Source of the DNA: Verrucomicrobiota bacterium | GTDB lineage: Bacteria > Verrucomicrobiota > Verrucomicrobiia > Verrucomicrobiales > DEV007 | Assembly: GCA_020630975.1 (NCBI GenBank) | Contig: JAHDID010000001.1 | Coordinates: 141,687-205,686 of the forward strand | DNA length: 64,000 nucleotides | Direction: 5' to 3' | In this document: positions 6,027-23,928 of the stretch, in pieces | Numbering within the stretch: position 1 is the stretch's first letter | Layout of the letters: every line of letters begins with the position of its first letter | Program-made: the position numbers and the translations under genes | Notes under the pieces: generated by a model | What the model saw: the letters and a program-made list of their open reading frames with translations, nothing else | Databases searched by the model: none | What the model was told of the DNA's origin: nothing

Positions 6027-6152
6027 TCCAACACAAGCTCAGCCTACCACTAAATATGGCAGCGCGGCCCTCCTCAGGACCGAGGCTAAAACCGTTTGTG
6101 ACCGCCCACTCCGGCTCGTACCCTAGGTGCCGACTAACCACTACCCGCACCT

Positions 6153-7568: not shown

Positions 7569-7701
7569 CCAGTTCGTAGACAGGGCCTTACGGGACTCAT
7601 TGTAAGGCGATTAAGCTTGGTTCGTCTGATGTGATGTACTAGACTTGAGATCGGTCTGACCAATGACTGCTGAGACCACCAAGTCTAAAACACCTAAAAC
7701 T

Positions 7702-8034
7702 ATGAAAACAACCATCTCATTGATGGCTACAGTAGCCATCGCTGGCTTTGCCCTGATCGGGTGCTCGCCAGCCACTACCGAGGAAGATTCGTCGGCCAGC
7801 TCTTCGACAGAGTCCGCCGCTCCTGATCAGGCCCAAGTCGTATCGCTCCAAGTCAGCGGTATGAAATGAGGCTCCAGCTGTGTGAGTAAAGTGCGGTCTG
7901 CACTTACCAAAGTAGACGGAGTCACCGATGCGAAAGTATCCATGCCTGATAAGGCCGAAGTCACCGGCTCTGCATCTGCCGATGACCTGATCGCCGCCGT
8001 CAAGGCTGCAGGTTTTACAGCGAAGACTCGCTAG
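7702..8034 (+). CDS. Predicted selenoprotein: HMA-domain lipoprotein, one in-frame UGA
   Basis: 110 aa if UGA at 7867-7869 is read as selenocysteine; otherwise the frame stops within the domain. The chosen start (7702) gives a signal peptide ending in the lipobox LIGC, so the product should be a lipid-anchored periplasmic protein. After a Ser/Glu-rich linker the sequence reads VSGMKUGSSCV, then a heavy-metal-associated-like domain with ALTKVDGVTDAKV and a final AVKAAGF. Sec occupies the first metal-binding Cys position, although the spacing is UxxxC rather than CxxC. The homology continues in frame past the UGA, and a SECIS-like hairpin follows. A redox or metal-binding role is inferred. An intrinsic terminator follows at 8096. 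Confidence 0.78.
7886..7907 (+). promoter_or_regulatory. Candidate bacterial SECIS hairpin
   Basis: A nine-by-eight base stem with one bulged A closes the five-base loop GGUCU. It begins 17 nt after the UGA. The GGUCU loop and the GC closing context closely resemble the E. coli fdhF SECIS loop. This is the main support for reading UGA 7867-7869 as Sec. Confidence 0.75.
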
Positions 8035-8095
8035 AAAGAAAGCCCAGAGGCTTTCCGTATCCATCAGGCCCATACGCTGATACCTCCCGAGAGAA

Positions 8096-8134
8096 AAAAC
8101 CTCGGACTGCCCTGCAGTTCGGGGTTTTCTTTTT
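8096..8134 (+). terminator. Intrinsic terminator after the HMA selenoprotein
   Basis: A stem of about 14 bp (AAAACCTCGGACTG with its G-U-containing complement) with the loop CCCTG, followed by CTTTTT. Confidence 0.8.
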
Positions 8135-8227
8135 CCGCTCCCTCCCCTCTCGCAATATTTAAGTCGCTAAAATTCAAAGAAATATTGAATAATTGGGTCA
8201 ATTGATGTCTAAATACGTCAAACGACC

Positions 8228-9106
8228 ATGAAACACATCTCCCTCGTGCCATTTTGGGTGCTGATAGGGGTGAGCACACTTCTCCATTTATCAGCTAGTG
8301 AAATGCAGTCTATCGATGGCTGTAGACTCAAGGCCATGCGTGGCGCGGATGGCGACAGCTTCATGGTGATGCTACCTGATGGCCGCGAGCAGGTGATCCG
8401 ACTCTACGCCGTAGACTGTGTGGAGGCATCAATCTGGGACGAAAATGACAGTCTCAGGCTCCGCGAGCAGCGCCGCTACTTCGGCATCAGTAGCTGTGGG
8501 CCTACTCTACTAGACTCAATAACCATGGCCAAAAAATTTGGACGCGAAGCTCATCAGGTGGTCACCGAGCTCCTATCAGAGCCATTCACTATCCACACCA
8601 GTTTCGCTGATGGCCGTGGTAGTGGCTATCATAGCCGAGTCTATGCCTACGTGACGACAGCGGCTGGACACGACCTCGGCACCCATCTCGTCGCCCACGG
8701 CTTGGCACGCGCCTTTGGCGTCACCAAAACCTTTGGCGAGCGGACTGATGATGATTGGAAAGACTTTCTCAAAGATGTGGAGCTCCAGGCCGCCGCCCAG
8801 AGACGAGGAGTGTGGGCCGAGACCGATTGGAGTTCTTTCGTATCTCAGCGCGATACGCAGCGTATCGAGGAAGCCGAGCTGGCACTTGCTATTGATCGTG
8901 CCAAACGCACAGGCATCGTAGATCCCAATACAGCCCCTAGAGACGAGCTCATGTCCCTACAGGGCATCGGCGAGACTCTGGCGATACGAATCATCGAAAA
9001 CCGCCCTTACAAATCAGCCGACGATCTACTAGCAGTCGAGCGTCTATCAGAAAGTGTCTTGGCCAAAAACAAAAACCGCCTCCCCACACCCTTTAGGGTG
9101 AATTAA
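8228..9106 (+). CDS. Secreted thermonuclease-like protein with helix-hairpin-helix tail
   Basis: 292 aa with an N-terminal signal peptide. Residues about 35-200 match the staphylococcal nuclease fold: GADGDSFMV, the RLYAVDCVEA strand, the YHSRVYAYV arginine region and GVWAETDW. Residues about 235-290 are a ComEA-type helix-hairpin-helix (NTAPRDELMSLQGIGETLA), which binds DNA without sequence specificity. The combination suggests a periplasmic or extracellular DNA-degrading or DNA-handling enzyme. The stop codon is directly followed by a paired dispersed repeat at 9108. Confidence 0.8.
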   Translation: MKHISLVPFWVLIGVSTLLHLSASEMQSIDGCRLKAMRGADGDSFMVMLPDGREQVIRLYAVDCVEASIWDENDSLRLREQRRYFGISSCGPTLLDSITMAKKFGREAHQVVTELLSEPFTIHTSFADGRGSGYHSRVYAYVTTAAGHDLGTHLVAHGLARAFGVTKTFGERTDDDWKDFLKDVELQAAAQRRGVWAETDWSSFVSQRDTQRIEEAELALAIDRAKRTGIVDPNTAPRDELMSLQGIGETLAIRIIENRPYKSADDLLAVERLSESVLAKNKNRLPTPFRVN

Positions 9107-9107
9107 A

Positions 9108-9144
9108 TTCAATAGGGTACAATTTTGACTGAATAGGGTACAAC
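9108..9144 (-). repeat. Paired dispersed repeat, TTGTACCCTATT type (copy 1)
   Basis: Two copies of TTGTACCCTATT on the minus strand, 21 bp apart, lying between the convergent ends of the thermonuclease and phoU genes. The same double motif with the same spacing recurs at 23709 and 51651, and a single degenerate copy lies at 47349. Confidence 0.75.
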
Positions 9145-9168
9145 TGGGTTCACCCAGCCGATCTCACC

Positions 9169-9897
9169 CTAAGACTCAAGTGCCGAAGGTCCGACGTGCT
9201 TGATACTGGTTCCGTGGGTGATGTAGACCGCTTCCTCGCAGATATTTACACTGTGGTCGCCGATCCGCTCTAGACAGCGGACGATGAAGATCAGGTGCAG
9301 GTAGGTCTTGATATTCTCAGTATCCGCCTCCATCGCCTGTGTGTAGTGCTTGATAGCTTTGCGATGCAGCTTATTTAGGTGCTTGTCCCGCTCGAATAAA
9401 GTCAGTGCTAACTCAGTATCACTCTCAGCATAGGCCTTTGCAGCATCTTGCAGCATAGCAGTAGCCGCGTCGTAGATTGGCTCGATCAGACGGATATCTT
9501 CGACTTCTTTCTTCTTCAGAATCTTACGAGCCCGGCGCGCTATGTTTTCCGCCTGATCGGAGATGCGCTCGATGTTGTTGGCTATCTTCATAGCAGCCAG
9601 CACCGATCGCAGGTCAGTCGCGACAGGATTGAAACGCATCAGGATCTCCATGCCCCCCTGATCGATACTGCGCTCGATCGCATTCACCTCTTCATCCTCT
9701 GCTATGGCATCATTACAGAGATCCTCATCGCGCTGCAGCAGACCATTCATCGCATTGGTCAGATTCTGCTGCGCGAGACTGCCCATCTTAATGACCAAAC
9801 TCCGACTCTCTCGAAGAGCTTCCTCAAAATTGCCTAGGCTGTGGCGAAGATCGGTTGATTCAGATTCAGAGGCCATAATCATTAATGCAGGGTACAC
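9169..9897 (-). CDS. phoU: Phosphate transport system regulator PhoU
   Basis: 242 aa, two tandem PhoU helical bundles. The repeats each carry the metal-contact pattern: DLRSVLAAMKIANNIERISDQAENIA (first copy split here as AANNIERISDQAEN-like) and IFIVRCLERIGDHSVNI near the C terminus. It is the last gene of a minus-strand pst operon, after pstB. PhoU restrains phosphate signalling and PstSCAB uptake when phosphate is ample. An alternative start (MASES) lies at 9876. Confidence 0.9.
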   Translation of the reverse strand: MYPALMIMASESESTDLRHSLGNFEEALRESRSLVIKMGSLAQQNLTNAMNGLLQRDEDLCNDAIAEDEEVNAIERSIDQGGMEILMRFNPVATDLRSVLAAMKIANNIERISDQAENIARRARKILKKKEVEDIRLIEPIYDAATAMLQDAAKAYAESDTELALTLFERDKHLNKLHRKAIKHYTQAMEADTENIKTYLHLIFIVRCLERIGDHSVNICEEAVYITHGTSIKHVGPSALES

Positions 9898-12067: not shown

Positions 12068-14479
12068 CTACGAAGACTGAAACTTTCCTAGAATTCTCTG
12101 CCCTATGTAGTTCACCACAAGAGTGATACCAAAAAGGAACAAACCGACAAAAAACAGCGCCTGCCAATCCACCGACCCTTTAGATGCTTCGCCCAGATTT
12201 TGAGCGATGATCCCCGTCATCGTATGACTGGGATCTGTGACCACACCGGGACCCTTGGTGAAATCGGGTATTGCCAATCGATTTCCAGCGACTAACAACA
12301 CCACCATGGTCTCGCCGACGACTCGACCAAAGCCCAACAGCACGGCTGCCACCACTCCACTAAATGATGCAGGCAGTATGACTTTGATCGCTGTCTGCAG
12401 GCGATTTGCCCCAAGCGAAAACGCTCCATCTCGGTAAGCCGAAGGCACATTATTCAAAGCATCTTCAGCCAAGGTGAAGATGATCGGACATGCCATGAAA
12501 GCGAGCAAGATACCCGCCACCAGCATATTCAAGCGAGCCTCGATGGGAAATCCAGGTAGCCACGAGAAAAGCGGTAGATAGCTTAGCTCTTTCAGCAAAT
12601 CTCCAACGACCATGATACCTAGGAAACCGAGCACCACAGATGGAATGGCCCCGATGAATTCGATGGCGGGCTTGAGAAAAGATTGCTCTTTAAAACCCGC
12701 TATCTGGTTGGCATAAATCGCTGCAGCCACCGAGAGTGGCACCGCGATGATCAGCGCTATCAGTGAGATAATCAGCGAACCAGTGATGATGGGCAGCAGA
12801 CCATATCGGTCTACGACTTGAGAGTTATTGGTCCATTTCTTACCCAGAAAAACTGCCGACAAAGTCTTTCCCCAGCCCCAAGACTGATCGTGGCGCCATT
12901 CATCTAGCCTCTCTCCTACGGACTCCAATTTAGCGACATCTTTAGCAAAATTCTTCCGAAAAACCTTCAACTCCTTCCGCGCAGCACTCGTCTGTAGGCT
13001 ACTAGGATCTGGCAAACTGGCGAGCAGCTCATTGCCCTCTGTTTTGATGGATTGTACCGCTTCATTGTAGCGATCTGTCAGAGCATATAGAGTCTCAGCT
13101 TCATCCCCAAAGGGGAAATCTGGCAAGAACTCCTCCGACGCCTCGGCCAGCCGGAGCACTGTCTCATCTTGGCTCAGATCCAAGCTGGCAAGCTCCGCTA
13201 ACAATATGCGTAAAGGCGAGTCTATCTGCCCATCCGGCAGTGCTTTGACAAATCCATCCACTGGGCGGTCATCACTCTGTAGGTAATCAAGAAAGGCTTT
13301 CTGGTCGTCATCCAGATCCGACAAGCGTGCCTCCACCGGCTTGCGAATCGAGGAAGTCATGGTGGCATACAGACTACCACTCTCGTCCAATCGCCTGACG
13401 ATATCTGAAAAGGCTTGGAGATAGAAAACACGGGCATACTCGTCGAAGAACTCAGCCTCATTTACGATCTTTAGCACCTGAGCATACTTCAGCGCCTTGG
13501 TACGTGGGCTCGCCTCCTCACCTAGTGCTATATTCACCTGAGCGACGACCTGCTCCGGCACTATCAGATTGGACTGGTAACGGTCTCGTACATCGGTCGC
13601 ATGCTCGAAAGCTTCCTTCCACACCTTGTCGAGGGGTTTTGCGATCTTACTCTTTGAGTAGCCTCGATAGACATCGAAAATCGGCTTGGCTGATGGATTA
13701 GTCTGTTCCCAGACCTCGTCGAATTGCTCCTCAACTAGCTCATAATACTCAGCGTCTGCCCTCTCCCATAGATCATGACTGACGACTGCATCAACCAACT
13801 CGGCGCGCGCTTCCTTCGACAGAGGTTTCAGCTCCTTTATCAGACCAGGAGTGAGACGACCCCGCAGCCAATCTCGCTTCGCATCGATGCGGCCTTTGTA
13901 GTCTTCGATGACCTTGTCCAGCTTCTTGGCCCGCTCAGAATCAGCCTTCCACTCGTCCTTGCGCTGCTTTATCGCATCTTTTAGCACCAGCAGATCATGT
14001 CCGAGCTGTCTTTCAGCCTCCTTGCGAGTCACCTCGTAGGCCGTCATCTTTAGCTGATTTTCCCGGTTTGGCCAGGCTAGCTCAGCAGCGTAGGCGCGAT
14101 TGATCCCACCTGTATTGGTCTTGTAGTTTTGGTAAGCCTCATCGACCAGCGTGTAATACTCCACCCCCGAACGCCGAAAGGTGCGCAGTTGTTCATGATG
14201 ATTCGGCAGGAAGAACCACGCCTCCTTCAGAAGGAAAAAACAAATCAGCAGCAGGATGAAGATAGCAAGGCTGGCATTGGCACCGAAGAAGTGCTTAATC
14301 ACCGTCTGCTTACTCAAGCCGAAGACCCTCAAGCCTCCTGTTTTCTTCTCAAAATCCATAATTTCTGAACTCAGGCGCCAATCATCGCAACCGATGGTAG
14401 TACCTTCCGAGCAAAAGAAAACACGATTCTGAGAATCAAATGTTTCATTTTTGTCGCAATTAAAATGCAAAAAGCGCAA
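12068..14479 (-). CDS. pstC: Phosphate ABC transporter permease PstC with ~450-residue insertion
   Basis: 803 aa from the longest start; MDFEKK at 14359 gives 764 aa and is more likely. PstC is normally about 300-330 aa. The C-terminal 260 residues are the usual permease, with AYRDGAFSLGANRLQT as the ATPase-coupling loop. Between the first membrane segment (SLAIFILLLICFFLLKEA) and the permease core lies a hydrophilic, Glu/Lys-rich, predicted helical region of about 450 residues, which would face the periplasm. I do not recognise a domain in it. The terminator between pstS and this gene suggests lower expression than PstS. Confidence 0.9.
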   Translation of the reverse strand: MRFLHFNCDKNETFDSQNRVFFCSEGTTIGCDDWRLSSEIMDFEKKTGGLRVFGLSKQTVIKHFFGANASLAIFILLLICFFLLKEAWFFLPNHHEQLRTFRRSGVEYYTLVDEAYQNYKTNTGGINRAYAAELAWPNRENQLKMTAYEVTRKEAERQLGHDLLVLKDAIKQRKDEWKADSERAKKLDKVIEDYKGRIDAKRDWLRGRLTPGLIKELKPLSKEARAELVDAVVSHDLWERADAEYYELVEEQFDEVWEQTNPSAKPIFDVYRGYSKSKIAKPLDKVWKEAFEHATDVRDRYQSNLIVPEQVVAQVNIALGEEASPRTKALKYAQVLKIVNEAEFFDEYARVFYLQAFSDIVRRLDESGSLYATMTSSIRKPVEARLSDLDDDQKAFLDYLQSDDRPVDGFVKALPDGQIDSPLRILLAELASLDLSQDETVLRLAEASEEFLPDFPFGDEAETLYALTDRYNEAVQSIKTEGNELLASLPDPSSLQTSAARKELKVFRKNFAKDVAKLESVGERLDEWRHDQSWGWGKTLSAVFLGKKWTNNSQVVDRYGLLPIITGSLIISLIALIIAVPLSVAAAIYANQIAGFKEQSFLKPAIEFIGAIPSVVLGFLGIMVVGDLLKELSYLPLFSWLPGFPIEARLNMLVAGILLAFMACPIIFTLAEDALNNVPSAYRDGAFSLGANRLQTAIKVILPASFSGVVAAVLLGFGRVVGETMVVLLVAGNRLAIPDFTKGPGVVTDPSHTMTGIIAQNLGEASKGSVDWQALFFVGLFLFGITLVVNYIGQRILGKFQSS

Positions 14480-16415: not shown

Positions 16416-17000
16416 TCACGACAGCAGAAACGGCTCCCAATCCTCAATATCGTGAGGATTCTTGAGTAGAGCGGTCACTGGCATCTCGCGCGGGGCTATC
16501 GGCTGCCTCTGCAGCTTCAGCCCGGCTTCTTCTGGTGTCCGGTTCGCTTTACGCGAGTTCACCCCGGTATCGGCGAGCACACAGTTTTCCCATGTGGTAG
16601 CGCCACCGCGTGAGCGCGGTATGACGTGGTCGATATTTCCCTCACCTGGGCGCAGCACCTTGCCGGTGTACTGGCAGCGACCACCATCTCGCTCCCACAG
16701 ATTGCGCGCATTGAACTTTGGGCGCTTCATCGGCACTTTGGCAAAATTCGACACGACTACGACTGTCGGGATACGGATACGACCACTGGCTGTACCGATA
16801 CTAGCGTCTTCATCCCGCACGGGTAGTTTTTTCCAGTCTTCCCATTTCGTAGGCACCATCCAGTCGGTTCCCTGTATATCTAGCGCTGTAGATACATCGG
16901 ATGCCATCTGGCAAAATGCCTCCGCTGGGGTTCGCGTATTGATCGCCTGCCAATTACGGTTTAGGACCAAAACGACTTTCTGATGGAGGATACTATTCAT
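16416..17000 (-). CDS. HNH endonuclease family protein
   Basis: 194 aa. The nuclease core lies at about residues 105-160, with CQYTGKV, NIDHVIPRSRGG and a final NSRKANRTPEEAG. The N-terminal half (VVLVLNRNWQAINTRTPAEAF) is the conserved extension found in a widespread housekeeping HNH family of unknown role. It is a single-gene unit with its own terminator. Confidence 0.8.
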   Translation of the reverse strand: MNSILHQKVVLVLNRNWQAINTRTPAEAFCQMASDVSTALDIQGTDWMVPTKWEDWKKLPVRDEDASIGTASGRIRIPTVVVVSNFAKVPMKRPKFNARNLWERDGGRCQYTGKVLRPGEGNIDHVIPRSRGGATTWENCVLADTGVNSRKANRTPEEAGLKLQRQPIAPREMPVTALLKNPHDIEDWEPFLLS

Positions 17001-17432: not shown

Positions 17433-18872
17433 CTACAGGGCTACTTTCTCAATTTCTCGCAGTAGCGCAGATTTATCCTCTTCGAGAAATCGCATAGTCG
17501 ACAAAGTCTTATCTGAAAACCCAGCCATGCTGTAGATATCTCTCTCAGGGAACTGCAAGCTACCATAACCAGCCAGATCGAAGGTAAAGACCTTTGGTCG
17601 GATACCTGCTCTCTGCACGTAGTTCTCAAAGGCAGCCTTTGGGCAGTAATAACCGACCCATGCCTGCATATCGGATAGTATCACGATACGATCGTACCGA
17701 CCCTTTGCCCGATCAAAGATCGAGTGGAAGTCTGTGCCTCCCCACTGCGCCTTCTCCTCCAGACGCTGGGCTAGCGACAGAGTCGCATCATCCGCATTCA
17801 GAGAAGTGTAGTGCGCATCGCCGCTGAATAACATCAGGTCAGCGTCGTTTGCCTTGTACAGGACGGAGGCAAACAGCGAACCGATCTTCATAGGCTTTCC
17901 GATCATCGATCCCGAGCAGTCTAAAGCCACCAGAGTACGCCCTGGGAACTTTGGCACATTGCCTAGCGACAGGTCAGCCGCTTGACTCAAGGCTCGCACC
18001 ACTCGCTGGCGCGACTTGCGTGGCAGATCTGCCTGCTCCAGCGCATCCAGAGCCGACCGGTAGCGAAAAGGCAACACCTTTGAGCTTTGCACCAACTTCT
18101 CATCGACCAACATCGCTTCGACTCGATCGATCTCGTCAGGCGCCTGCTCTAGGATATTGCGCAGGTTTCGGAGTAGAGCGAAGTAGCCGATCTTGCGAGA
18201 ACCGATCAAGTCAGACCAGGCTTGTGCCTTTTTGCTTTCCTTATCGGTGTCGCTATCCGCTTGCTGCCCAGCCTGAGTCAGCTTGGTCTCCCAAGTCTCA
18301 GCCGGAGCCAGCTCGCCCTTCACCAGGCTCGCGATCGCAGGGGTGTGAGGTGGGTGCACCAGGTTCACCGCATCGACCATCTTCAGCTCAGCACCATCTT
18401 TTCGGTACTTCGCCAGCTGGTAGGCATCGAATCGGGCCAACGCTTTACCCAGACCTTTCTTCAAAGAGTTGGGCAGCGGCTTGCCATACACAGCCATGCA
18501 GTAGGACAGGATCTCGAGCACATCATCTGCCCGATAGACCACACGATCGAAGAAATCCTTAGTCCACTGCTCACCCTTCACAGAGTGAGCCAGCTCGCCA
18601 GCTACTAGGTGAGACACAGAGCGCATCCCAGCCTCGCGCCGCGCGTACAAAGCCGCTTTGGCGACAAACTTCTTATCCGGTATCTTCGCTACTAGCTCGG
18701 TCAGACGCTTAGCAGTGGCATTGGCACTGCGGTAGTACTGAGCATCGAGAAAACTGGTCAGCATGATAGTCGCCAGCTCCATTTTTTCAGTCTGCTGGTA
18801 GGCCTGGCCGCCAGCCAGATTCAAAGTATTCGGCTTAGCTTGCCGCGATTTTAGTAGTTTATTGAATTTCAT
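17433..18872 (-). CDS. TROVE-domain (Ro60/Rsr-like) RNA-binding protein
   Basis: 479 aa. The N-terminal two thirds is a TROVE HEAT-repeat ring: NLAGGQAYQQTEKMEL, then KIPDKKFVAKAALYARREAGMRSVSHLVAGELA. The C-terminal third is a von Willebrand A domain with an intact MIDAS start (VALDCSGSM) and SDMQAWVG. Ro-family proteins bind Y RNAs and misfolded non-coding RNAs. A strong AAGGAG site lies 12 nt before the ATG, unusual for this window. It ends a minus-strand array of about 22 tRNA-like genes, which suggests these are its ligands, though that is inference. No rtcB or rtcA is present in the window. Confidence 0.92.
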   Translation of the reverse strand: MKFNKLLKSRQAKPNTLNLAGGQAYQQTEKMELATIMLTSFLDAQYYRSANATAKRLTELVAKIPDKKFVAKAALYARREAGMRSVSHLVAGELAHSVKGEQWTKDFFDRVVYRADDVLEILSYCMAVYGKPLPNSLKKGLGKALARFDAYQLAKYRKDGAELKMVDAVNLVHPPHTPAIASLVKGELAPAETWETKLTQAGQQADSDTDKESKKAQAWSDLIGSRKIGYFALLRNLRNILEQAPDEIDRVEAMLVDEKLVQSSKVLPFRYRSALDALEQADLPRKSRQRVVRALSQAADLSLGNVPKFPGRTLVALDCSGSMIGKPMKIGSLFASVLYKANDADLMLFSGDAHYTSLNADDATLSLAQRLEEKAQWGGTDFHSIFDRAKGRYDRIVILSDMQAWVGYYCPKAAFENYVQRAGIRPKVFTFDLAGYGSLQFPERDIYSMAGFSDKTLSTMRFLEEDKSALLREIEKVAL

Positions 18873-18933
18873 TTTATGATTTCACTCCTTTCTGTGTTTG
18901 GTTGATAGAAAGAGAATTTTTGAAGAGAAAAAC

Positions 18934-19026
18934 GAACAGGGATGCGAGTTCCCCCCGATGAGGGAGAACCAGTTTATCAGACTGGTGTATTTTGGTGATA
19001 CGAAGTAACCCTATTCTCACTGCTTC
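18934..19026 (-). ncRNA. tRNA-like element with shared leader (possibly permuted, unresolved)
   Basis: It begins with the leader seen in three other array elements (GCAGTGAG, then GGGTTACTTCG) and ends in a complementary trailer; GAATAGGG and CCCTGTTC pair over 8 bp. Inside is a 5+7+5 stem-loop CCAGT-CTGATAA-ACTGG that looks like a tRNA-Ile(GAU) anticodon arm. Next comes TTCTCCC, which can pair with GGGGGAA after a six-base linker, as in a permuted acceptor stem. A four-bp stem with a seven-base loop (CACCAAA) precedes the anticodon-like arm. No T-arm can be placed. The identity is open. Confidence 0.45.
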
Positions 19027-19034
19027 AAAAAAAT

Positions 19035-19109
19035 TGGCAGCCAAGCACGGATTCGCACCGTGATCTTCGCAGTCAGAGTGCGATATCCTAACTATTGGAC
19101 GACTCGGCG
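19035..19109 (-). tRNA. tRNA-Gln(CUG), non-canonical elbow
   Basis: Normal gene order. The anticodon loop is CTCTGAC. The D-loop is AATAGTTA (A18-G19) and the T-loop TGCGAAT (G55-C56). Pair 1-72 is mismatched (C/U). A 3' CCA appears to be encoded. Confidence 0.8.
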
Positions 19110-19128
19110 ATAAAGAGAGAGGTAAGTA

Positions 19129-19159
19129 ATCTCAGAGAAAAGTGGCTTGGGGACATAAT
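19129..19159 (-). other. Trailer of permuted tRNA-Asn
   Basis: Pairs with the leader at 19241-19269: 7 bp (ATCTCAG/CTGAGAT), then AGTG/CACT, then TGGG/CCCA, with bulges between. This brings the two ends to be joined close together. Confidence 0.5.
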
Positions 19160-19240
19160 CGTGCTCTACCGACTGAGCTACCTCCCGATAAAAAGTCGGG
19201 AGAGTGGGACTCGAACCCACGACCACGCGATTAACAATCG
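19160..19240 (-). tRNA. Permuted tRNA-Asn(GUU): 3' half precedes 5' half
   Basis: In transcript order the 3' half comes first (19240-19196: CGA, loop TTGTTAA, TCGCG, TGGTC, canonical T-arm GTGGG-TTCGAGT-CCCAC, TCTCCCG, A). An eight-base linker follows, then the 5' half (19187-19160: CGGGAGG, TA, D-arm GCTC-AGTCGGTA-GAGC, A, CG). Joining base 19160 to 19240 gives a perfect anticodon stem, CGCGA/TCGCG. The acceptor halves pair over seven positions with one wobble. The whole lies inside a leader/trailer helix (ATCTCAG at 19269 with CTGAGAT at 19135). It keeps the standard elbow (GG with TTC). Confidence 0.72.
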
Positions 19241-19357
19241 AAGTAACCCATATGCCTCACTGCTGAGATAAAACTTGGGGGAGAAAAAAGTAAGATTAGC
19301 AGTCTCACCAGACTGACTAACTAAAGGCTGAAAGAAACGCGACCTCACTGTATGAGG

Positions 19358-19467
19358 AATCTGTGTAATCTGTGCCTCATCTGAGAAAATCTGTGAAAAA
19401 ATGATCTACCTTATCAGCCTAAGGCTCTGCAGAGATTCACTCAGATTAGGCACAGATTACACAGATT
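19358..19467. repeat. Inverted repeat, 28-bp arms
   Basis: Arms 19358-19385 and 19440-19467 match in 27 of 28 positions; the loop is 54 nt. The arm contains AATCTGTGTAATCTGTG, a word that resembles dispersed bacterial intergenic repeats. It lies between the two permuted tRNA genes. Confidence 0.75.
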
Positions 19468-19546
19468 TTTCTTAGCCTGTTCAAATACAAATTTCTTTTG
19501 GTATGAAAAAGTAAGATTCGCGGAGTAAATCGAGCCGAGCATGTTT

Positions 19547-19626
19547 TTCAACTACTGGGCCATATAGGAGGCCCAGATAGGAGTCGAACCTATATCGTCT
19601 GAAGACTAGTCAGATGTTGTATACCG
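19547..19626 (-). tRNA. Permuted tRNA-Thr(AGU): 3' half precedes 5' half
   Basis: The 3' half comes first: CGGTATA, CAAC, A, anticodon arm TCTGA-CTAGTCT-TCAGA, T-arm ATAGG-TTCGACT-CCTAT, CTGGGCC. After a short linker comes the 5' half: GGCCCAG, TA, GTTG, AA. The acceptor stem is a perfect 7 bp, and the D-stem is completed across the halves (GTTG with CAAC), so the junction falls in the D-loop. An outer 10-bp helix (AGATTCGCGG with CCGCGAATCT) encloses it from 19659 to 19514. Position 37 is C, which is unusual. It keeps the standard elbow. Confidence 0.7.
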
Positions 19627-19663
19627 AAGTATCTCGAAATCTCTCACTACCGCGAATCTAAAA

Positions 19664-19736
19664 TGCCCAAGCACGGATTTGCACCGTGTTTATCCGGCTT
19701 CAAAGGCCGGCGCATTACTGCATATGCTACTTGGGG
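19664..19736 (-). tRNA. tRNA-Gln(UUG), non-canonical elbow
   Basis: Cloverleaf with the anticodon loop CTTTGAA. D-loop ATGCAGTA (A18-G19), T-loop TGCAAAT (G55-C56). Pair 1-72 is C/C, as the other Gln tRNA is also mismatched there. Confidence 0.82.
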
Positions 19737-19748
19737 TTAAAAGGGTGA

Positions 19749-19822
19749 TACCCATGGTAGGACTCGCACCTACAACCTCCGGTTTCTAAGACCGGCGCCT
19801 CTGCTAATTGGGCTACATGGGC
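19749..19822 (-). tRNA. tRNA with anticodon UAG (Leu codon CUA), short variable loop
   Basis: Complete cloverleaf, anticodon loop CTTAGAA. D-loop contains TTAGCAG (A18-G19), T-loop TGCGAGT (G55-C56). Leu tRNAs normally have a long variable arm; this one has five bases, so its charging identity is uncertain. Confidence 0.75.
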
Positions 19823-19850
19823 ATAAATTATAAGACATCAAATGGTCACT

Positions 19851-19940
19851 CTATGTAGGGTCAGCTTGTAGCTGACCGACAGGCTGAGGCATCACCTCAT
19901 ACAGAGGGAAGCCGGTCAGCTACAAGCTGACCCTACATAG
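19851..19940. repeat. Perfect inverted repeat, 28-bp arms
   Basis: Arms 19851-19878 and 19913-19940 are exact reverse complements; the loop is 34 nt. Part of the arm and adjacent loop (GTAGGGTCAGC, AGGCTGAG) recurs in degenerate form at 22170-22204. It could act as a strong terminator or processing site between a tRNA and a protein gene. Confidence 0.8.
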
Positions 19941-19975
19941 GCGAATGCAACCGCAGGGCCTCGACCGGCCCAGAA

Positions 19976-20800
19976 TTAGTCGAGGAACGCGACATTCTGC
20001 ATTGCAGATGTCTGGTTCTCCGTGTTCATCAAGACCTTGTGCCAGCCTCTCAACTTGACGGTCTTGTGATCTGGGTGACGCACAGTGCCTCGAGCATAGA
20101 CCTCGGGATTTCGACGCGACACCTGCCAGCCGATTCGCTTGGATGGGTTGGCTTTGATCCGCTTGTTGTATTGAGCCACGGTCAACACCTCTCCAGAGTT
20201 CCAGTTCACATAGACGGTCTCACCATTGGAGCGGACCAACTCCTTCACGATATGCGGCTTGCTACCTCTACCACGAGAGATCGGCTCGTTTTGCAAAATC
20301 TGAAAAGGCGCAAAGTCGACATCCTCCACCGGTACAAAGAACCATTCACCTTGCCGAATGTAAGCCTTGTTGTGTCGACGGTTACGATCTTTTGCTTTCA
20401 GGCGATGATACACCTGAGCATCGATCACAGCCGACGGCTTCAGTGCTTCCTTCGCATCGACCACAGTGGATGCGGTCCCTGGCACGGCAGCGACAAACCA
20501 CTCTCGCTCGTCGAAACCACAGAGGAATCGCTCGCGCCTTCCTTCGGAGTTCACGACCAACGTCAGCAGACTCCTATCGGCTGGCAGGCTCTGTAGCACC
20601 TGCATATCGATATCCGAAGAAAATGCTTTGGATACCGAAAAGACAAACTGCTCCCGCCCTGATTGTGAAGACTGCACATCTAAACTGTAGTCAATAGGTG
20701 CAGGTGAAGCCCACCACTGTTGGCGAGCAGGAACCATATCCTCGAACACAATATGCGCCCCTATTTTAGCAAAATGCTTTTGGATAGTATTAGTATTCAT
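19976..20800 (-). CDS. Unknown protein encoded inside the tRNA array
   Basis: 274 aa, soluble, no signal peptide or membrane segment. I do not recognise the family. Notable stretches are YIRQGEWFFVPVED (about residue 146), GRGSKPHIVKELV (about 180) and VRHPDHKTVKLRGWHKV near the C terminus, where two His and a Trp are closely spaced. Basic residues are frequent (KAKDRNRRHNK), compatible with RNA binding. It is flanked by tRNA-like genes on the same strand and ends next to a perfect inverted repeat. Its position suggests a role with the array RNAs; this is inference only. Confidence 0.75.
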   Translation of the reverse strand: MNTNTIQKHFAKIGAHIVFEDMVPARQQWWASPAPIDYSLDVQSSQSGREQFVFSVSKAFSSDIDMQVLQSLPADRSLLTLVVNSEGRRERFLCGFDEREWFVAAVPGTASTVVDAKEALKPSAVIDAQVYHRLKAKDRNRRHNKAYIRQGEWFFVPVEDVDFAPFQILQNEPISRGRGSKPHIVKELVRSNGETVYVNWNSGEVLTVAQYNKRIKANPSKRIGWQVSRRNPEVYARGTVRHPDHKTVKLRGWHKVLMNTENQTSAMQNVAFLD

Positions 20801-20820
20801 TTTATTGGTTAAAATTCAGA

Positions 20821-20893
20821 TAGCTACGGCCGGATTCGAACCGGCACTGATTCGGGCTTAAACCGAATGCCTCTGCCGTTGGGCTACGCAGCT
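20821..20893 (-). tRNA. tRNA with anticodon UAA (Leu codon UUA), short variable loop
   Basis: Perfect cloverleaf, anticodon loop TTTAAGC. D-loop includes CGGCAG (G18-G19), T-loop TTCGAAT, a standard elbow. Five-base variable loop although the anticodon is that of Leu. Confidence 0.78.
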
Positions 20894-20907
20894 TTTTATG
20901 ATAGAAA

Positions 20908-20979
20908 CACTCCCGGTAGGATTCGAACCTACGACCTTGAGTTTCGAAGACTCCTGCTCTTCCGCTGAGCTACGAGAGT
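20908..20979 (-). tRNA. tRNA-Arg(UCG), standard elbow
   Basis: Anticodon loop CTTCGAA, D-loop AGCGGAA (GG), T-loop TTCGAAT. One mismatch at the base of the anticodon stem. Confidence 0.88.
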
Positions 20980-20991
20980 AGATAGAAAAAC

Positions 20992-21061
20992 ACCTCCACA
21001 TGGTTCCGCCCCATGAACTTCGGAGTAACAATCCGATGTGATACTATTTCACCACAGAGGT
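20992..21061 (-). tRNA. tRNA-Asn(GUU), non-canonical elbow
   Basis: Normal gene order, a second Asn gene besides the permuted one. Anticodon loop TTGTTAC, D-loop AATAGTA (A18-G19), T-loop GGCGGAA (G54, G55, C56, G58). Confidence 0.78.
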
Positions 21062-21076
21062 AACTAAAAAAATACG

Positions 21077-21159
21077 GAGCGGAGGGATCGAACCTCTCGA
21101 CAGCCGACCCACGGTTTTACGTCGTCAGCTTAGAAGGCTGGTGTGGGAGCGCCCCGCTC
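21077..21159 (-). tRNA. tRNA-Arg(UCU)-like, no D-arm, enlarged variable region
   Basis: The anticodon stem-loop CAGC-CTTCTAA-GCTG and T-loop TTCGATC are clear. There is no D-arm: the segment CCCAC (about 21147-21143) can instead pair with GTGGG (21112-21108) in an enlarged variable region. The acceptor plus T stack is shorter than the usual 12 bp. It may be aberrant or a new fold. Confidence 0.55.
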
Positions 21160-21167
21160 AAGAAAGA

Positions 21168-21239
21168 TAGGACTGGCTGGAATCGAACCAGCGGCCAAGG
21201 GATTATGAGTCCCCTGCTCTACCATTGAGCTACAGTCCC
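21168..21239 (-). tRNA. tRNA-Met(CAU), standard elbow
   Basis: Canonical cloverleaf, anticodon loop CTCATAA, D-loop AATGGTA, T-loop TTCGATT. CAU could also be a lysidine-modified Ile tRNA. Confidence 0.9.
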
Positions 21240-21262
21240 GTGGATAGCCCCAATAAAGGGAT

Positions 21263-21334
21263 TGGAGCCTAGGACAGGACTCTCACCCGCATACTCCGAT
21301 TTACAAAATCGGCGCACTTGTCTGCCACCTAGGC
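21263..21334 (-). tRNA. tRNA-Thr(UGU), non-canonical elbow
   Basis: Anticodon loop TTTGTAA. D-loop GACAAG (A18-G19), T-loop TGAGAGT (G55, A56), the only array member lacking C56. An encoded 3' CCA follows the discriminator. Confidence 0.75.
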
Positions 21335-21345
21335 ATAGAAAATAT

Positions 21346-21416
21346 ACGCTGTGCCGGTACTGCCCCGGCTTCTTCAGTTTGGAAGACTGACATCATCGCT
21401 TTTAGACCAACAGCGC
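21346..21416 (-). tRNA. tRNA-Gly(UCC), non-canonical elbow
   Basis: Anticodon arm TCAGT-CTTCCAA-ACTGA. D-loop TAAAAGC (A18-G19), T-arm GCCGG-GGCAGTA-CCGGC (G54, G55, C56, G58). Extra bases separate the D- and anticodon stems. Confidence 0.75.
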
Positions 21417-21492
21417 TCATCATCCCACGAAACACAACTCAGAGAATAATGGTTGGGTACAGCCAAAAAAATATGGCTACCGATGTAGATCG

Positions 21493-21629
21493 AGCAGTGA
21501 AGAATCTGCCCGACACTGATCACGCAGGTAGATCTACAGGAGATCGTCACCGCTGTCGCTAGGCCGATCGCTCGGCTGTCACTACCTTAGGGTCGTTATA
21601 GTTACGAAGTAACCCAAATCCTCGCTGCT
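21493..21629 (-). ncRNA. Leader-bearing tRNA-like element (unresolved)
   Basis: Starts with the shared leader (AGCAGCGAGGATT, then GGGTTACTTCG). The leader pairs with a trailer ATTCTTCACTGCT in 11 of 13 positions (about 21505-21493). It contains a GCCGA-GCGA-TCGGC hairpin that could be a long variable arm, and two copies of a GTAGATC-type acceptor sequence. I could not assign an anticodon or reconstruct a cloverleaf. Confidence 0.4.
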
Positions 21630-21665
21630 GAGGTACCGTTGTGGACGCAAGATTAGAAGTAAAAG

Positions 21666-21736
21666 AGATGCCGACAGGACTTGCACCTGCATGCGATGGG
21701 TTGCAGCCATCTGCCTCGCTGTTCGGCCACGGCATC
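21666..21736 (-). tRNA. tRNA-Cys(GCA), non-canonical elbow
   Basis: Perfect acceptor stem GATGCCG/CGGCATC, anticodon loop CTGCAAC. D-loop GAACAGCGA (A18-G19), T-loop TGCAAGT (G55-C56). Confidence 0.82.
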
Positions 21737-21747
21737 ATTAAAAAAAG

Positions 21748-21818
21748 TTCTCCCGGAAGGTACCGCCCCTTCTTCACTAGCTTAAAAGGCAAGTGCATCA
21801 CTTTAATGCTTCGAGAGA
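21748..21818 (-). tRNA. tRNA-Lys(UUU), non-canonical elbow
   Basis: Anticodon loop CTTTTAA with one U/U mismatch in the stem. D-loop TAAAGTG (A18-G19), T-arm GAAGG-GGCGGTA-CCTTC (G54, G58). Confidence 0.75.
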
Positions 21819-21822
21819 ATAA

Positions 21823-21894
21823 CATCCCAGCCAGGAATCGAACCTGAAGTAGCTGATAGAAAGTCAGCTGTGTTAGCCATTACACCACAGGGAC
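21823..21894 (-). tRNA. tRNA-Glu(UUC), standard elbow
   Basis: Anticodon arm GCTGA-CTTTCTA-TCAGC. D-loop AATGGCTA (GG), T-loop TTCGATT. Position 37 is U instead of a purine. Confidence 0.85.
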
Positions 21895-21912
21895 ATGGGT
21901 ATAGATATATAA

Positions 21913-21987
21913 TCGGGGTAGCAGGATTCGAACCTGCGGCTTCTGGTACCCAAAACCAGCGCTCTGACCAGACTGAGCTATACCCCG
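21913..21987 (-). tRNA. tRNA-Pro(UGG), standard elbow
   Basis: Fully canonical: CGGGGTA/TACCCCG acceptor, anticodon loop TTTGGGT, D-loop AGTCTGGTCA, T-loop TTCGAAT. Confidence 0.93.
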
Positions 21988-22003
21988 CTCTTTAATAGAA
22001 AAA

Positions 22004-22076
22004 TCCGATCGACGGGCCTCGCACCCGCGCAGCTACCTTCACAGGGTAGAATGCTAACTATCTACATCACGATCGG
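22004..22076 (-). tRNA. tRNA-His(GUG), non-canonical elbow, no G-1
   Basis: Acceptor CCGATCG/CGATCGG, anticodon loop CTGTGAA. D-loop AGATAGTTA (A18-G19), T-loop TGCGAGG (G55-C56). The genomic base at -1 is A and the discriminator is A, so the G-1:C73 identity pair of most bacterial tRNA-His is absent. Confidence 0.8.
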
Positions 22077-22223
22077 TGTATGAAATGAACTGGCCCACGC
22101 TACGGACCTAAAAAACGCCATGGCACTACCCCACGGCTATGGGCTCGATCAGCTACCTGCTGTCACTGCGTAGGGTCAGCCTTTAGCTGCCCGGCAGGCT
22201 GAGCACTACAGCCAGCTCAGGAC
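22077..22223. other. Array segment without a recognised gene
   Basis: Minus-strand sequence has a GCCCAT/GTGGGC complementarity at roughly tRNA-acceptor distance, but no cloverleaf could be built. A degenerate copy of the 19851 repeat occupies 22170-22204. Confidence 0.4.
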
Positions 22224-22688
22224 TCACGGAGTCGTAATCTGCCCTCGCCCATGATCCTTCTTAGATGGAGGGACGATCGCCACCGAGTCAGTCTCATCCT
22301 TCGGTGCGGCCTCTACTTTGCCTGTAGTGGTCTTGTTTTTACGCCGCTCACGTAGCGGCACGACCTGAATATCGGTAGTCCTCTCTCGTTCACACACGAG
22401 AAATTCAACATCACTCACTTTGATCACGTCGCCCGCCTTAAACTTGGCTGGCTGGTAGGGCACTAGCCTGTCGCCATTGAGAAATGTTCCATTCGAGGAG
22501 TCACAGTCCTCGATCGATGGTGCCACCTCACCCTCCATCAGGATCTGGGCGTGGCGAGACGAGACCGAGCCTTGGTCGATGCACACGCGATTAGATGGAT
22601 CTCGACCAATCGAGATCTTGTCGCCTTCTAGATCAATCTCCTGAGCCGAGCCAGCAGTTTTGATCAGGGTTTTTAGCACATAGTCCAT
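22224..22688 (-). CDS. FHA-domain protein
   Basis: 154 aa. The forkhead-associated fold spans residues about 18-90 with ISIGRDPSNRVCI, SSRHAQI (the phosphothreonine-contacting Ser-Arg-His) and DCDSSNGTFLNGDRL. The C-terminal tail is basic and disordered (RERRKNKTTTGK). FHA domains bind phosphothreonine peptides, so a Ser/Thr kinase partner is expected, but none is in the window. It is 79 bp downstream of another FHA gene, inside the tRNA array. Confidence 0.88.
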   Translation of the reverse strand: MDYVLKTLIKTAGSAQEIDLEGDKISIGRDPSNRVCIDQGSVSSRHAQILMEGEVAPSIEDCDSSNGTFLNGDRLVPYQPAKFKAGDVIKVSDVEFLVCERERTTDIQVVPLRERRKNKTTTGKVEAAPKDETDSVAIVPPSKKDHGRGQITTP

Positions 22689-22767
22689 CCACGAGACGCG
22701 GAGTGAATCTTACCCCAAAACCCGTGTCTACGGGAAGAGCAAAACAATCCTACCTGCCCTGCCAGGA

Positions 22768-23277
22768 CTACCCGACAGGTGAGAAAGGATCGTAACCCCT
22801 CTTTTTGGGGTAGCCAGCATAGGGCTTTCGCTTACTGGGGCTTTTACTATCCTGCTTAGCACGCGCCGAGCGTACAGCTTTGGGAGATTTACTATTCAAA
22901 AATCCAGGCTTGTAGTCAGCTTCCCAACCCCAGCTCACCGGAGTCAGATCACTCACAGGGCCAACAGTCGCTGCCGCCGTATGAGTCGCCACTACCACAC
23001 ATCCAGCCACACCAAAGCGAACTTCGTCTCCCACCGACAGCGCAGTAGGCTCTGAGATCGCTATACCGTTTACAAAGGTACCATTCCTCGATCCCAGATC
23101 CTCAATACTGTGCCCACCGCCAGGCAGCGGGTTCAGCCTCGCATGCTGAGCAGAGACTGATGATTCGAAAATCTGCAGCTTGTTAAAAGCATTCCGACCG
23201 ACCGATACGGACTCTCCAGCTGGCAGGTCGACATTGTCGCCATGCCCATTAGCAGCGATTTGCAGGCTTAGTTCCAT
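22768..23277 (-). CDS. FHA-domain protein with basic C-terminal tail
   Basis: 169 aa. FHA core at residues about 20-90: SVGRNAFNKLQIF, SAQHARL and DLGSRNGTFVNG; Ala-Gln-His replaces the usual Ser-Arg-His, though the NGTF strand is intact. The tail is Lys/Ser/Arg-rich (RSARAKQDSKSPSKRKP), plausible for nucleic acid contact. A perfect TATAAT at 23318-23313 lies 36-41 bp upstream of the start, so the two FHA genes may have their own promoter within the array. Confidence 0.86.
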   Translation of the reverse strand: MELSLQIAANGHGDNVDLPAGESVSVGRNAFNKLQIFESSVSAQHARLNPLPGGGHSIEDLGSRNGTFVNGIAISEPTALSVGDEVRFGVAGCVVVATHTAAATVGPVSDLTPVSWGWEADYKPGFLNSKSPKAVRSARAKQDSKSPSKRKPYAGYPKKRGYDPFSPVG

Positions 23278-23434
23278 TAGAGTTGTGTAAGGTGTTTGTG
23301 CAAACGACCGAGATTATACTGCCCAGCCGCCTTATGAGATTAGCAATAAAAATGCCAAACACAAAGTAGAAGGCAAATTATGTCCAAAAAATTTACAACC
23401 TTTTTATAATTTCCGTAAATTAAACCTGACTAAC

Positions 23435-23506
23435 TGGCTCGTGATGGTACCGCACCATCCTCTCATCGCCTTCAACGACGCGCTAATCTCTCTCAGCTAA
23501 CGAGCC
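23435..23506 (-). tRNA. tRNA-Phe(GAA), non-canonical elbow
   Basis: Perfect acceptor GGCTCGT/ACGAGCC, anticodon loop TTGAAGG. D-loop AGAGAGAT (A18-G19), T-arm GATGG-TGCGGTA-CCATC. It is the one tRNA that does not fit the 54/58 pattern (U54, G58). Confidence 0.8.
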
Positions 23507-23512
23507 TAAAAA

Positions 23513-23583
23513 TCGCTCCGGATGGTAATGCTCCACCGTCTTCCGGTTATCAACCGGGTGCTCTACTTTTGAGCTACGAAGCG
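23513..23583 (-). tRNA. tRNA-Ile(GAU), non-canonical elbow
   Basis: Acceptor CGCTTCG/CGGAGCG, anticodon loop TTGATAA. D-loop AAAAGTA (A18-G19), T-loop AGCATTA (A54, G55, C56, U58). Confidence 0.78.
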
Positions 23584-23597
23584 AAAAAATTAAACAA

Positions 23598-23684
23598 TGA
23601 GTGATGGTGGTAATGCTCCACTCGTCGACTTCCCGAATTGTTTTATGACAGCGGTTTTACAGACCGCTAGCGGGACCAGCACTC
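23598..23684 (-). tRNA. tRNA-Tyr(GUA), no D-arm, long variable region
   Basis: Anticodon arm GCGGT-CTGTAAA-ACCGC. Only ten bases separate acceptor and anticodon stems, so there is no D-arm. TCCCG in that segment (23675-23671) pairs perfectly with CGGGA (23635-23631) in a long variable region. T-loop AGCATTA. Acceptor GAGTGCT/ATCACTC with one mismatch. Confidence 0.65.
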
Positions 23685-23708
23685 GTTCCTTGGCCGATTT
23701 GTACCCAT

Positions 23709-23745
23709 TTGTACCCTATTGAATAAAAATTGTACCCTATTGAAT
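23709..23745 (+). repeat. Paired dispersed repeat, TTGTACCCTATT type (copy 2)
   Basis: TTGTACCCTATT at 23709 and 23730, 21 bp apart, with a degenerate third copy at about 23699. It lies between tRNA-Tyr and tRNA-Met in the array. Confidence 0.75.
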
Positions 23746-23766
23746 CAGAGCCAAGTGTGTAAAGAA

Positions 23767-23835
23767 ATTGCAGGTCTCGGTAACGCTCCGAGCATCCCGA
23801 GGGTATGAACCTCTGGCCGACTCTTATCGCCCTGC
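23767..23835 (-). tRNA. tRNA-Met(CAU)-like, non-canonical elbow
   Basis: Anticodon loop TTCATAC, T-arm CTCGG-AGCGTTA-CCGAG (A54, G55, C56, U58). Reduced D-arm CGA-TAAGAG-TCG carries A18-G19. Mismatches at 7-66 and at the base of the anticodon stem. Confidence 0.65.
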
Positions 23836-23855
23836 ACATGGTATCAAAAACAAAA

Positions 23856-23928
23856 TTGGCAGGCCGCCCCGGTGCTGCCCCGGGCGACGCCGGATTTGGA
23901 ATCCAGTGTGCACGCTGGTGCGCGACCT
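23856..23928 (-). tRNA. tRNA-Trp(CCA)-like, non-canonical elbow
   Basis: Acceptor AGGTCGC/GCGGCCT, anticodon arm CTGGA-TTCCAAA-TCCGG. Tiny D-arm GCAC-CAGC-GTGC (A18-G19), T-loop of eight bases ending GGCAGCA. Encoded 3' CCA. Confidence 0.7.

Follow-up and report, generated by a model that had tools for sequence, protein, structure and literature searches.

U55, which occurs as pseudouridine-55 (Psi55), and the G18-G19 dinucleotide are among the most invariant features of transfer RNA (tRNA). Here we describe an array of tRNA genes in which most members depart from both, in a 64,000-nucleotide stretch of DNA (hereafter the window) from a Verrucomicrobiota bacterium (GenBank assembly GCA_020630975.1, contig JAHDID010000001.1, positions 141,687 to 205,686), the draft genome of which is 7.14 Mb. 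The array occupies the minus strand from 23.9 to 18.9 kb of the window and reads towards a gene for Ro60/Rsr and a gene for an HNH nuclease.

The window was scanned for tRNAs with a structure-only cloverleaf finder, which ignores positions 18, 19, 55 and 56 and requires U33. Sixteen window tRNAs were returned at scores of at least 34, against a single match, at 24.3, in the shuffled window. Twelve tRNAs (Gln-CUG, Gln-UUG, Leu-UAG, Asn-GUU, Gly-UCC, Cys, Lys, His, Phe, Ile, the Met-like CAU and Trp) carry A18-G19 together with G55-C56, so that they lack the canonical signature of G18-G19 with U54-U55-C56, as does Thr-UGU with its G55. Five others (Leu-UAA, Arg-UCG, Met-CAU, Glu-UUC and Pro-UGG) are canonical, having GG in the D-loop and TTC in the T-loop.

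The initial annotation had assigned thirteen tRNAs to the AG/G55 group and seven to the GG/TTC group. Twelve of the thirteen stand; for the remaining one, Thr-UGU, the reported A56 instead of C56 is correct (T-loop TGAGAGT), while the AG is insecure because the D-loop is very short (ACAA), and Tyr-GUA (AGCATTA, G55) had been omitted. In the second group the same five canonical tRNAs are retained, and the two supposedly permuted members, Asn and Thr, are Y RNAs rather than tRNAs. As a control, 19 tRNAs from elsewhere in the genome were checked and all 19 have GG with TTC, therefore the altered elbow is a property of the array and not of the host tRNAs generally; the genome also encodes TruB. 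The features of the locus are listed below, where AG denotes the D-loop dinucleotide, CM a covariance-model hit and finder the cloverleaf finder; all of them lie on the minus strand, and the outer limits of the Y RNAs at 21500..21640, 19530..19650 and 19155..19265 are approximate.

23861..23928, minus: tRNA-Trp (CCA), alternative elbow, D-loop ..CAG.., T-loop GGCAGCA; from sequence and CM
23770..23835, minus: Met-like tRNA (CAU), alternative elbow, T-loop AGCGTTA; from sequence
23599..23684, minus: tRNA-Tyr (GUA), long variable arm, reduced D-arm, G55 T-loop AGCATTA; from sequence
23513..23583, minus: tRNA-Ile (GAU), AG with AGCATTA; finder and CM
23436..23506, minus: tRNA-Phe (GAA), AG with TGCGGTA; finder and CM
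22768-23277 and 22224-22688, minus: two FHA-domain proteins, which separate the two blocks of the tRNA array
22004..22076, minus: tRNA-His (GUG), AG with TGCGAGG
21913..21987, minus: tRNA-Pro (UGG), canonical GG with TTC
21823..21894, minus: tRNA-Glu (UUC), canonical GG with TTC
21748..21818, minus: tRNA-Lys (UUU), AG with GGCGGTA; CM
21666..21736, minus: tRNA-Cys (GCA), AG with TGCAAGT, U73
21500..21640, minus: candidate Y RNA, Ro60-binding motif at 21606-21626; limits approximate
21345..21416, minus: tRNA-Gly (UCC), AG with GGCAGTA; CM
21266..21334, minus: tRNA-Thr (UGU), short D-loop ACAA with TGAGAGT (G55, A56)
21168..21239, minus: tRNA-Met (CAU), canonical GG with TTC
21077..21159, minus: odd Arg-like tRNA (UCU), normal acceptor and T-arm, canonical T-loop TTCGATC, unrecognisable D-arm; weak tRNA-Sec CM hit
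20991..21061, minus: tRNA-Asn (GUU), AG with GGCGGAA; CM
20908..20979, minus: tRNA-Arg (UCG), canonical GG with TTC
20821..20893, minus: tRNA-Leu (UAA), canonical GG with TTC
19976..20800, minus: 274-aa protein with no assigned family, conserved in these loci
19749..19822, minus: tRNA-Leu (UAG), AG with TGCGAGT
19664..19736, minus: tRNA-Gln (UUG), AG with TGCAAAT
19530..19650, minus: Y RNA (earlier permuted Thr), Ro60 motif at 19626-19648, T-loop TTCGACT, acceptor hairpin
19155..19265, minus: YrlA-type Y RNA (earlier permuted Asn), Ro60 motif at 19240-19261, T-arm TTCGAGT, acceptor hairpin, GG D-arm
19038..19109, minus: tRNA-Gln (CUG), AG with TGCGAAT, CCA encoded
18930..19025, minus: candidate Y RNA, Ro60 motif at 19002-19021 and an anticodon-arm-like hairpin
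17433..18872, minus: Ro60/Rsr, TROVE and vWA domains (PF05731, 6.7e-19)
16416..17000, minus: HNH nuclease (PF13395, 1.5e-7), conserved beside these arrays

The intergenic spaces of the array also hold a palindromic repeat (GTAGGGTCAGCTTGTAGCTGACC-like), at 19857-19940 and about 22175-22205 of the window.

Coupled change of the D- and T-loops

Homologous loci yielded a pooled set of 1,050 unique tRNAs with the same finder. The proposal that the two loop types do not mix holds in this set, as 596 AG/G55 and 266 GG/U55C56 tRNAs were found against 8 mixed ones (2 AG/U55C56 and 6 GG/G55), the remainder having both or neither dinucleotide, or another T-loop. Two AG/U55 cases from the Verrucomicrobiota set were inspected (D-loops ataggta and aaaggata) and in fact contain GG. 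A misplaced D-loop, which might have produced the AG/G pairing artificially, is ruled out by the 7-nt D-loops, where positions 18 and 19 cannot slip: here AG accompanies GC in 200 tRNAs and GG accompanies TC in 84, against one AG with TC and one GG with GC (Fisher p about 1e-57, a value that ignores the kinship of the sequences and is not a phylogenetic probability). Positions 18 and 55 are not independent in homologous arrays, and the suggestion that an alternative 18-55 contact is under selection, rather than decaying, is supported.

Among non-stem pairs of the tRNAs with fixed-length D-loops, mutual information with average-product correction ranks 54-58 first and 18-55 second, and it also recovers the known 9-23 and 8-14 contacts. 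Within 686 G55 tRNAs the 54-58, 15-48, 8-14 and 9-23 pairs covary, with 54-58 taking seven combinations (T-A, G-G, A-T, C-A, C-C, T-T and A-A), of which T-A is found in 390/686. Opposite G55, position 18 is A, rarely C or U, and the 19-56 pair stays Watson-Crick through change, as U19-A56 (Arg-UCG) or A19-U56. The U19 and A56 variant is mostly limited to Arg-UCG (D-loop aatgtata, T-loop cgaaagt), with examples at 9223-9294, 8815-8886 and 10988-11059 of the homologous loci L039, L041 and L047, respectively.

The two loops switch together within isoacceptors. This is demonstrated by tRNAs of the same anticodon that differ in both loops while the rest of the molecule is 96% (Met-CAU), 92% (Arg-UCU) or 84% (Leu-CAA) identical. 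Parsimony infers about 34 switches of T-loop type on a tree that excludes the loops, an estimate on the upper side given that tRNA trees are noisy.

A normal elbow has residue 18 inserted between T-loop positions 4 and 5 and residue 19 paired with 56, and its G18 meets Psi55 in a single-hydrogen-bond contact (PMC4810234). The T-loops of the flavin mononucleotide (FMN) riboswitch are UGAAA and accept an intercalated A (PMC3764141), and GNR-type T-loops with a trans U-A pair are common to the FMN and adenosylcobalamin (AdoCbl) riboswitches (PMC2258182). Array T-loops of the form TGCRA, with A18, provide both the U-G-N-R-A sequence and an available A, and we infer that the array T-loop is of the FMN-riboswitch U-G-N-R-A type, its geometry being predicted. 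In such an elbow the donor and acceptor sides would be swapped, with G55 donating hydrogen bonds to A18 (or C18, U18) in place of G18 to U55, and Psi55 would therefore be unneeded. The altered elbow would also deprive TruB and TrmH of their substrates, U55 and G18, so that neither Psi55 nor Gm18 would be present, and the retained 19-56 pair should keep the tRNAs able to dock to RNase P, L5 and the L1 stalk.

Array tRNAs and the Y RNAs beside them

The array members have the appearance of working tRNAs. In a sample of 35 sequences the stems were paired in 98.2% of cells and double changes were seen at 20 of 21 pairs. The canonical elongator fold is present, with 7/4/5/5 stems, U33 (imposed by the finder) and the 8-14, 15-48 and 9-23 pairs, and a 7/5 acceptor/T-stem fits throughout, rather than the 8/4 or 9/3 of allo-tRNAs. 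Since the 54-58, 15-48, 8-14 and 9-23 pairs also covary, as described above, the array tRNAs are folded and L-shaped. Furthermore, altered-elbow arrays are conserved in dozens of independent genomes, cultured strains included.

All 20 amino acids are covered by the 693 unique G55 tRNAs, and a single array (L283) covers 18 of them from G55 tRNAs alone. Judged by their bases, the synthetase identity elements are kept as a class, and charging itself is predicted: G3:U70 in Ala (21/21), U73 in Cys (27/27), G73 in Asp (29/29), Asn (28/28) and Trp (15/15), and C1-G72 in Pro (49/50), as well as the long variable arms of Ser and Tyr. The Escherichia coli discriminator rule is not followed by Thr, Gly and His of the G55 class. 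Roughly 80% of the class has an encoded CCA; most members in the window are without it.

The features that had been read as permuted tRNA-Asn and tRNA-Thr genes are re-identified as YrlA-like Y RNAs, as they carry the Ro60-binding motif and lie upstream of the Ro60 gene. The Asn-like one matches RF02553 (YrlA) at 35.8 bits over 19160-19227, below the gathering score of 69; its segment, 19155-19265, combines a Ro60-binding stem motif with a permuted tRNA-like domain near the rsr gene, and Ro60 binding is predicted. Homologous loci contain 145 sites of the motif, 4 sites lie in the window, and shuffled sequence gave 2. At 64 of the 145 sites the motif precedes a permuted tRNA-like domain (T-arm, acceptor hairpin, D-arm), and these domains have a TTC T-loop in 53/64 (by listing) and a GG D-arm in 44/64. 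Thermodynamic folding gave no useful signal for the Y RNA segments (z -1.6 to 1.0). Going by their loops, then, the Y RNA that mimics a tRNA keeps the ordinary elbow in the same locus in which the real tRNAs carry the altered one.

Neighbouring genes and distribution

The Ro60/Rsr gene scores 68.8 bits against PF05731 (cut-off 23), the metal ion-dependent adhesion site of its vWA domain (DxSxS) reads DCSGS in the alignment, and a profile of its family matches solved TROVE/Rsr/Ro60 structures (best 6.5e-32). At the NCBIfam Rsr equivalog it reaches 38 bits against a cut-off of 900, therefore it belongs to a divergent branch of the TROVE family; its nearest named relatives are metagenome-assembled genomes labelled Verrucomicrobiales. 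The core residues of the HNH protein are invariant in 20 homologues. The gene for the 274-aa protein is present in nine loci, seven of them with G55 arrays; this protein has no family in Pfam, PADLOC or NCBIfam, and its structural model (predicted local distance difference test score 83) gave no fold match at E<=0.001 in a Foldseek search of the PDB.

TROVE was found in 35 of 142 relatives. The window's branch comprises 22 close homologues (phmmer, at least 496 bits), and G55 arrays occur in every locus with enough upstream sequence. A second TROVE branch of the same order (13 loci, L053-L065, below 90 bits) is never accompanied by them, and its 0/13 loci rule out that TROVE alone implies G55 arrays. 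Scanning public genomes yielded 80 relatives. G55 tRNAs are found in Verrucomicrobiota loci including those of Chthoniobacter flavus Ellin428, Brevifollis gellanilyticus, Ereboglobus and Spartobacteria LR76, and the same protein lies beside canonical arrays in Saprospiraceae, other Bacteroidota and one Acidobacteriota contig. Viral contigs are mostly canonical, and five viral Ro60 loci have the HNH gene, all with tRNAs. One viral contig, L157, has six G55-C56 tRNAs; its array (5945-9423) bears G18/C55, A18/G55, A19-U56 and G54-G58 with U55 side by side. Across the loci surveyed, the altered elbow hardly occurs outside Verrucomicrobiota.

HNH, RtcB, RlaP and an SPFH/slipin protein are conserved near the arrays, in addition to Ro60 and Y RNAs. 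To find arrays independently of Ro60, we also searched 388 genomes of the phylum with a G55-tRNA covariance model and retrieved the loci with the strongest hits. The bit score of this model separates altered from canonical tRNAs incompletely; the counts are therefore limited to loci that were retrieved and read again, and four of the retrieved loci, with top scores of about 60-61 bits, held single canonical tRNAs only. Thirteen arrays with at least three G55 tRNAs were obtained; HNH is present in 11 of them and RtcB in 8, and Ro60 lies within about 10 kb in only 2. An obligatory Ro60 is rejected by these counts, which instead mark the arrays as parts of RNA-repair loci in which Ro60 is optional. 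RtcB is present in 14 G55-array loci of relatives. In L283, a small sigma-70 family factor is encoded between the HNH and RtcB genes (12464-13183, plus strand), a hint of inducible expression.

Proposed function of the array and relation to known systems

We consider it somewhat more probable than otherwise that the array encodes a functional stand-by tRNA set as part of an RNA-repair locus of Ro60/Y RNA/RtcB type, with an elbow that lacks the canonical signature. The repair context is supported by the gene neighbourhoods. As G18 and U55 are lost in the company of repair genes, we suggest that these are replacement tRNAs unseen by the agents that damage ordinary ones; this evasion, which we infer, is the weakest step. 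When ordinary tRNAs are cut or decayed, for example by phage-triggered or stress nucleases, the locus would supply replacements without the G18/U55 signature, and a putative factor reading that signature (a tRNA nuclease, the HNH protein of the locus, or Ro60-Y RNA-PNPase decay) would spare them, while the canonical-looking Y RNAs may serve as a tether or decoy. Replacement tRNAs are known against HNH-containing PtuAB systems that cut tRNA-Tyr (PMC11555353, PMC13096335), and the tRNA-like domain of YrlA has been suggested as a possible inhibitor of a tRNA nuclease (PMC7790460). A broader version, which we put forward tentatively and at rather less than even chances, is that of a second tRNA repertoire for almost the entire code, which an inverted 18-55 contact marks at the elbow and keeps apart from the housekeeping tRNAs, and which is used on induction of the repair locus so that translation can continue on tRNAs unseen by elbow-reading nucleases, modification enzymes or Ro60-Y RNA decay.

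Several observations weigh against the stand-by set. The altered elbow is unneeded for Ro60-array function generally, because Bacteroidota, the Acidobacteriota contig and most phages are canonical. A minority of canonical tRNAs, most often Glu, Arg and Met, persists in the arrays, and evasion must account for them. Moreover, the best matches of the HNH protein are Cas9/IscB HNH domains, and no RtcB was found beside the window array, the three RtcB genes of this genome being on other contigs.

It is possible, though unlikely, that the arrays merely drifted free of modification, having escaped dependence on TruB/TrmH and kept a founder UGNRA-type elbow by compensation, with no benefit beyond the fold. 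Near-confinement to one phylum, with equivalent arrays elsewhere canonical, would fit such drift, as would the coexisting solutions at 18-55 (A-G, C-G, U-G) and the seven types at 54-58, and the 18-55 contact itself accounts for the covariation. However, the roughly 34 switches and the near-total dominance of one class over all 20 amino acids suggest a shared pressure, and locus-wide drift fails as an explanation because the Y RNAs of the same loci remain canonical. Self-immunity, in which the HNH protein is a tRNA nuclease reading the canonical elbow and the array tRNAs are the immune set that sustains translation, has in our view a little under one chance in five. The HNH gene is the most constant protein partner, both in the arrays found without reference to Ro60 (11/13) and in the five viral Ro60 loci, its core residues are intact, and the faint PtuB resemblance recalls systems that cut tRNA-Tyr (PMC11555353, PMC13096335); however, the Cas9/IscB match is the stronger one, the usual substrate of HNH proteins is DNA, a PtuA-like ATPase was not seen, and phage arrays with HNH can be canonical (L205, L224).

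We regard as quite improbable that the array encodes non-translational tRNA mimics, i.e., ligands, sponges or regulators for Ro60, PNPase or RNA sensors. Their neighbours, the Y RNAs, are themselves tRNA mimics, and the scarcity of encoded CCA in the window would agree with this, but the discriminator and identity bases follow the anticodon, anticodon loops are intact, the class as a whole mostly encodes CCA, and G55 arrays occur without Ro60. That the array consists of decaying copies or an assembly artefact we treat as practically negligible: reduced members do exist (the Tyr D-arm, the Arg-UCU-like tRNA, the Thr D-loop), but the comparative data contradict it, with stems 98% paired, strict loop coupling and dozens of independent genomes, and compensatory stem changes together with wide conservation rule it out.

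A coordinated replacement in isoacceptors across a phylum would amount to a second workable elbow, and it indicates which parts of the contact matter, namely a donor-acceptor pair at 18-55, a trans pair at 54-58 and a stacked 19-56. These tRNAs are natural material for testing the purpose of Psi55/Gm18 and of TruB and TrmH. Their setting beside Ro60, Y RNAs, RtcB and RlaP ties the altered elbow to tRNA damage and offers a testable role for a poorly understood ribonucleoprotein (RNP), and elbow-marked orthogonal tRNAs could serve synthetic biology.

Ro60-Y RNA systems, RtcB/RlaP repair loci, tRNA arrays and UGNRA T-loops are already known separately; within open-licence papers, we found no report of an A18/G55 tRNA elbow or of a nearly complete tRNA set bearing one. 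Other tRNAs that depart from the consensus, such as the non-proteinogenic staphylococcal tRNA-Gly and the allo-tRNAs, are single isotypes or variants of the acceptor/T-stem. We know of no report of an altered elbow in mycobacterial or phage tRNA array units. Those units share the dense, multi-isotype arrangement apart from housekeeping genes (PMC5966550), whereas most members here are A18/G55. Streptomyces phage GiJojo (PP725410) likewise encodes a Ro-like protein from within a tRNA array, with an RNA ligase nearby, but its 22 recovered tRNAs are all canonical GG/TTC. The Salmonella rsr-yrlBA-rtcBA operon and YrlA-Ro60 RNPs (PMC7790460, PMC8394870) have Ro60 and tRNA-like Y RNAs in common with the window, and RtcB in common with the loci of relatives; unlike in that operon, a large altered-elbow tRNA array is part of the locus and is accompanied by HNH, RlaP and SPFH, and RtcB is not adjacent in the window. 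Allo-tRNAs (PMC7609411) are also bacterial departures from the consensus, from which the array tRNAs differ by normal 7/5 stems and an elbow change of the whole set. The FMN riboswitch T-loop (PMC3764141) likewise combines a U-G-N-R-A loop with an adenine that inserts between its fourth and fifth positions; unlike in the riboswitch, the array loop replaces the T-psi-C loop within full tRNAs and the 19-56 pair is kept.

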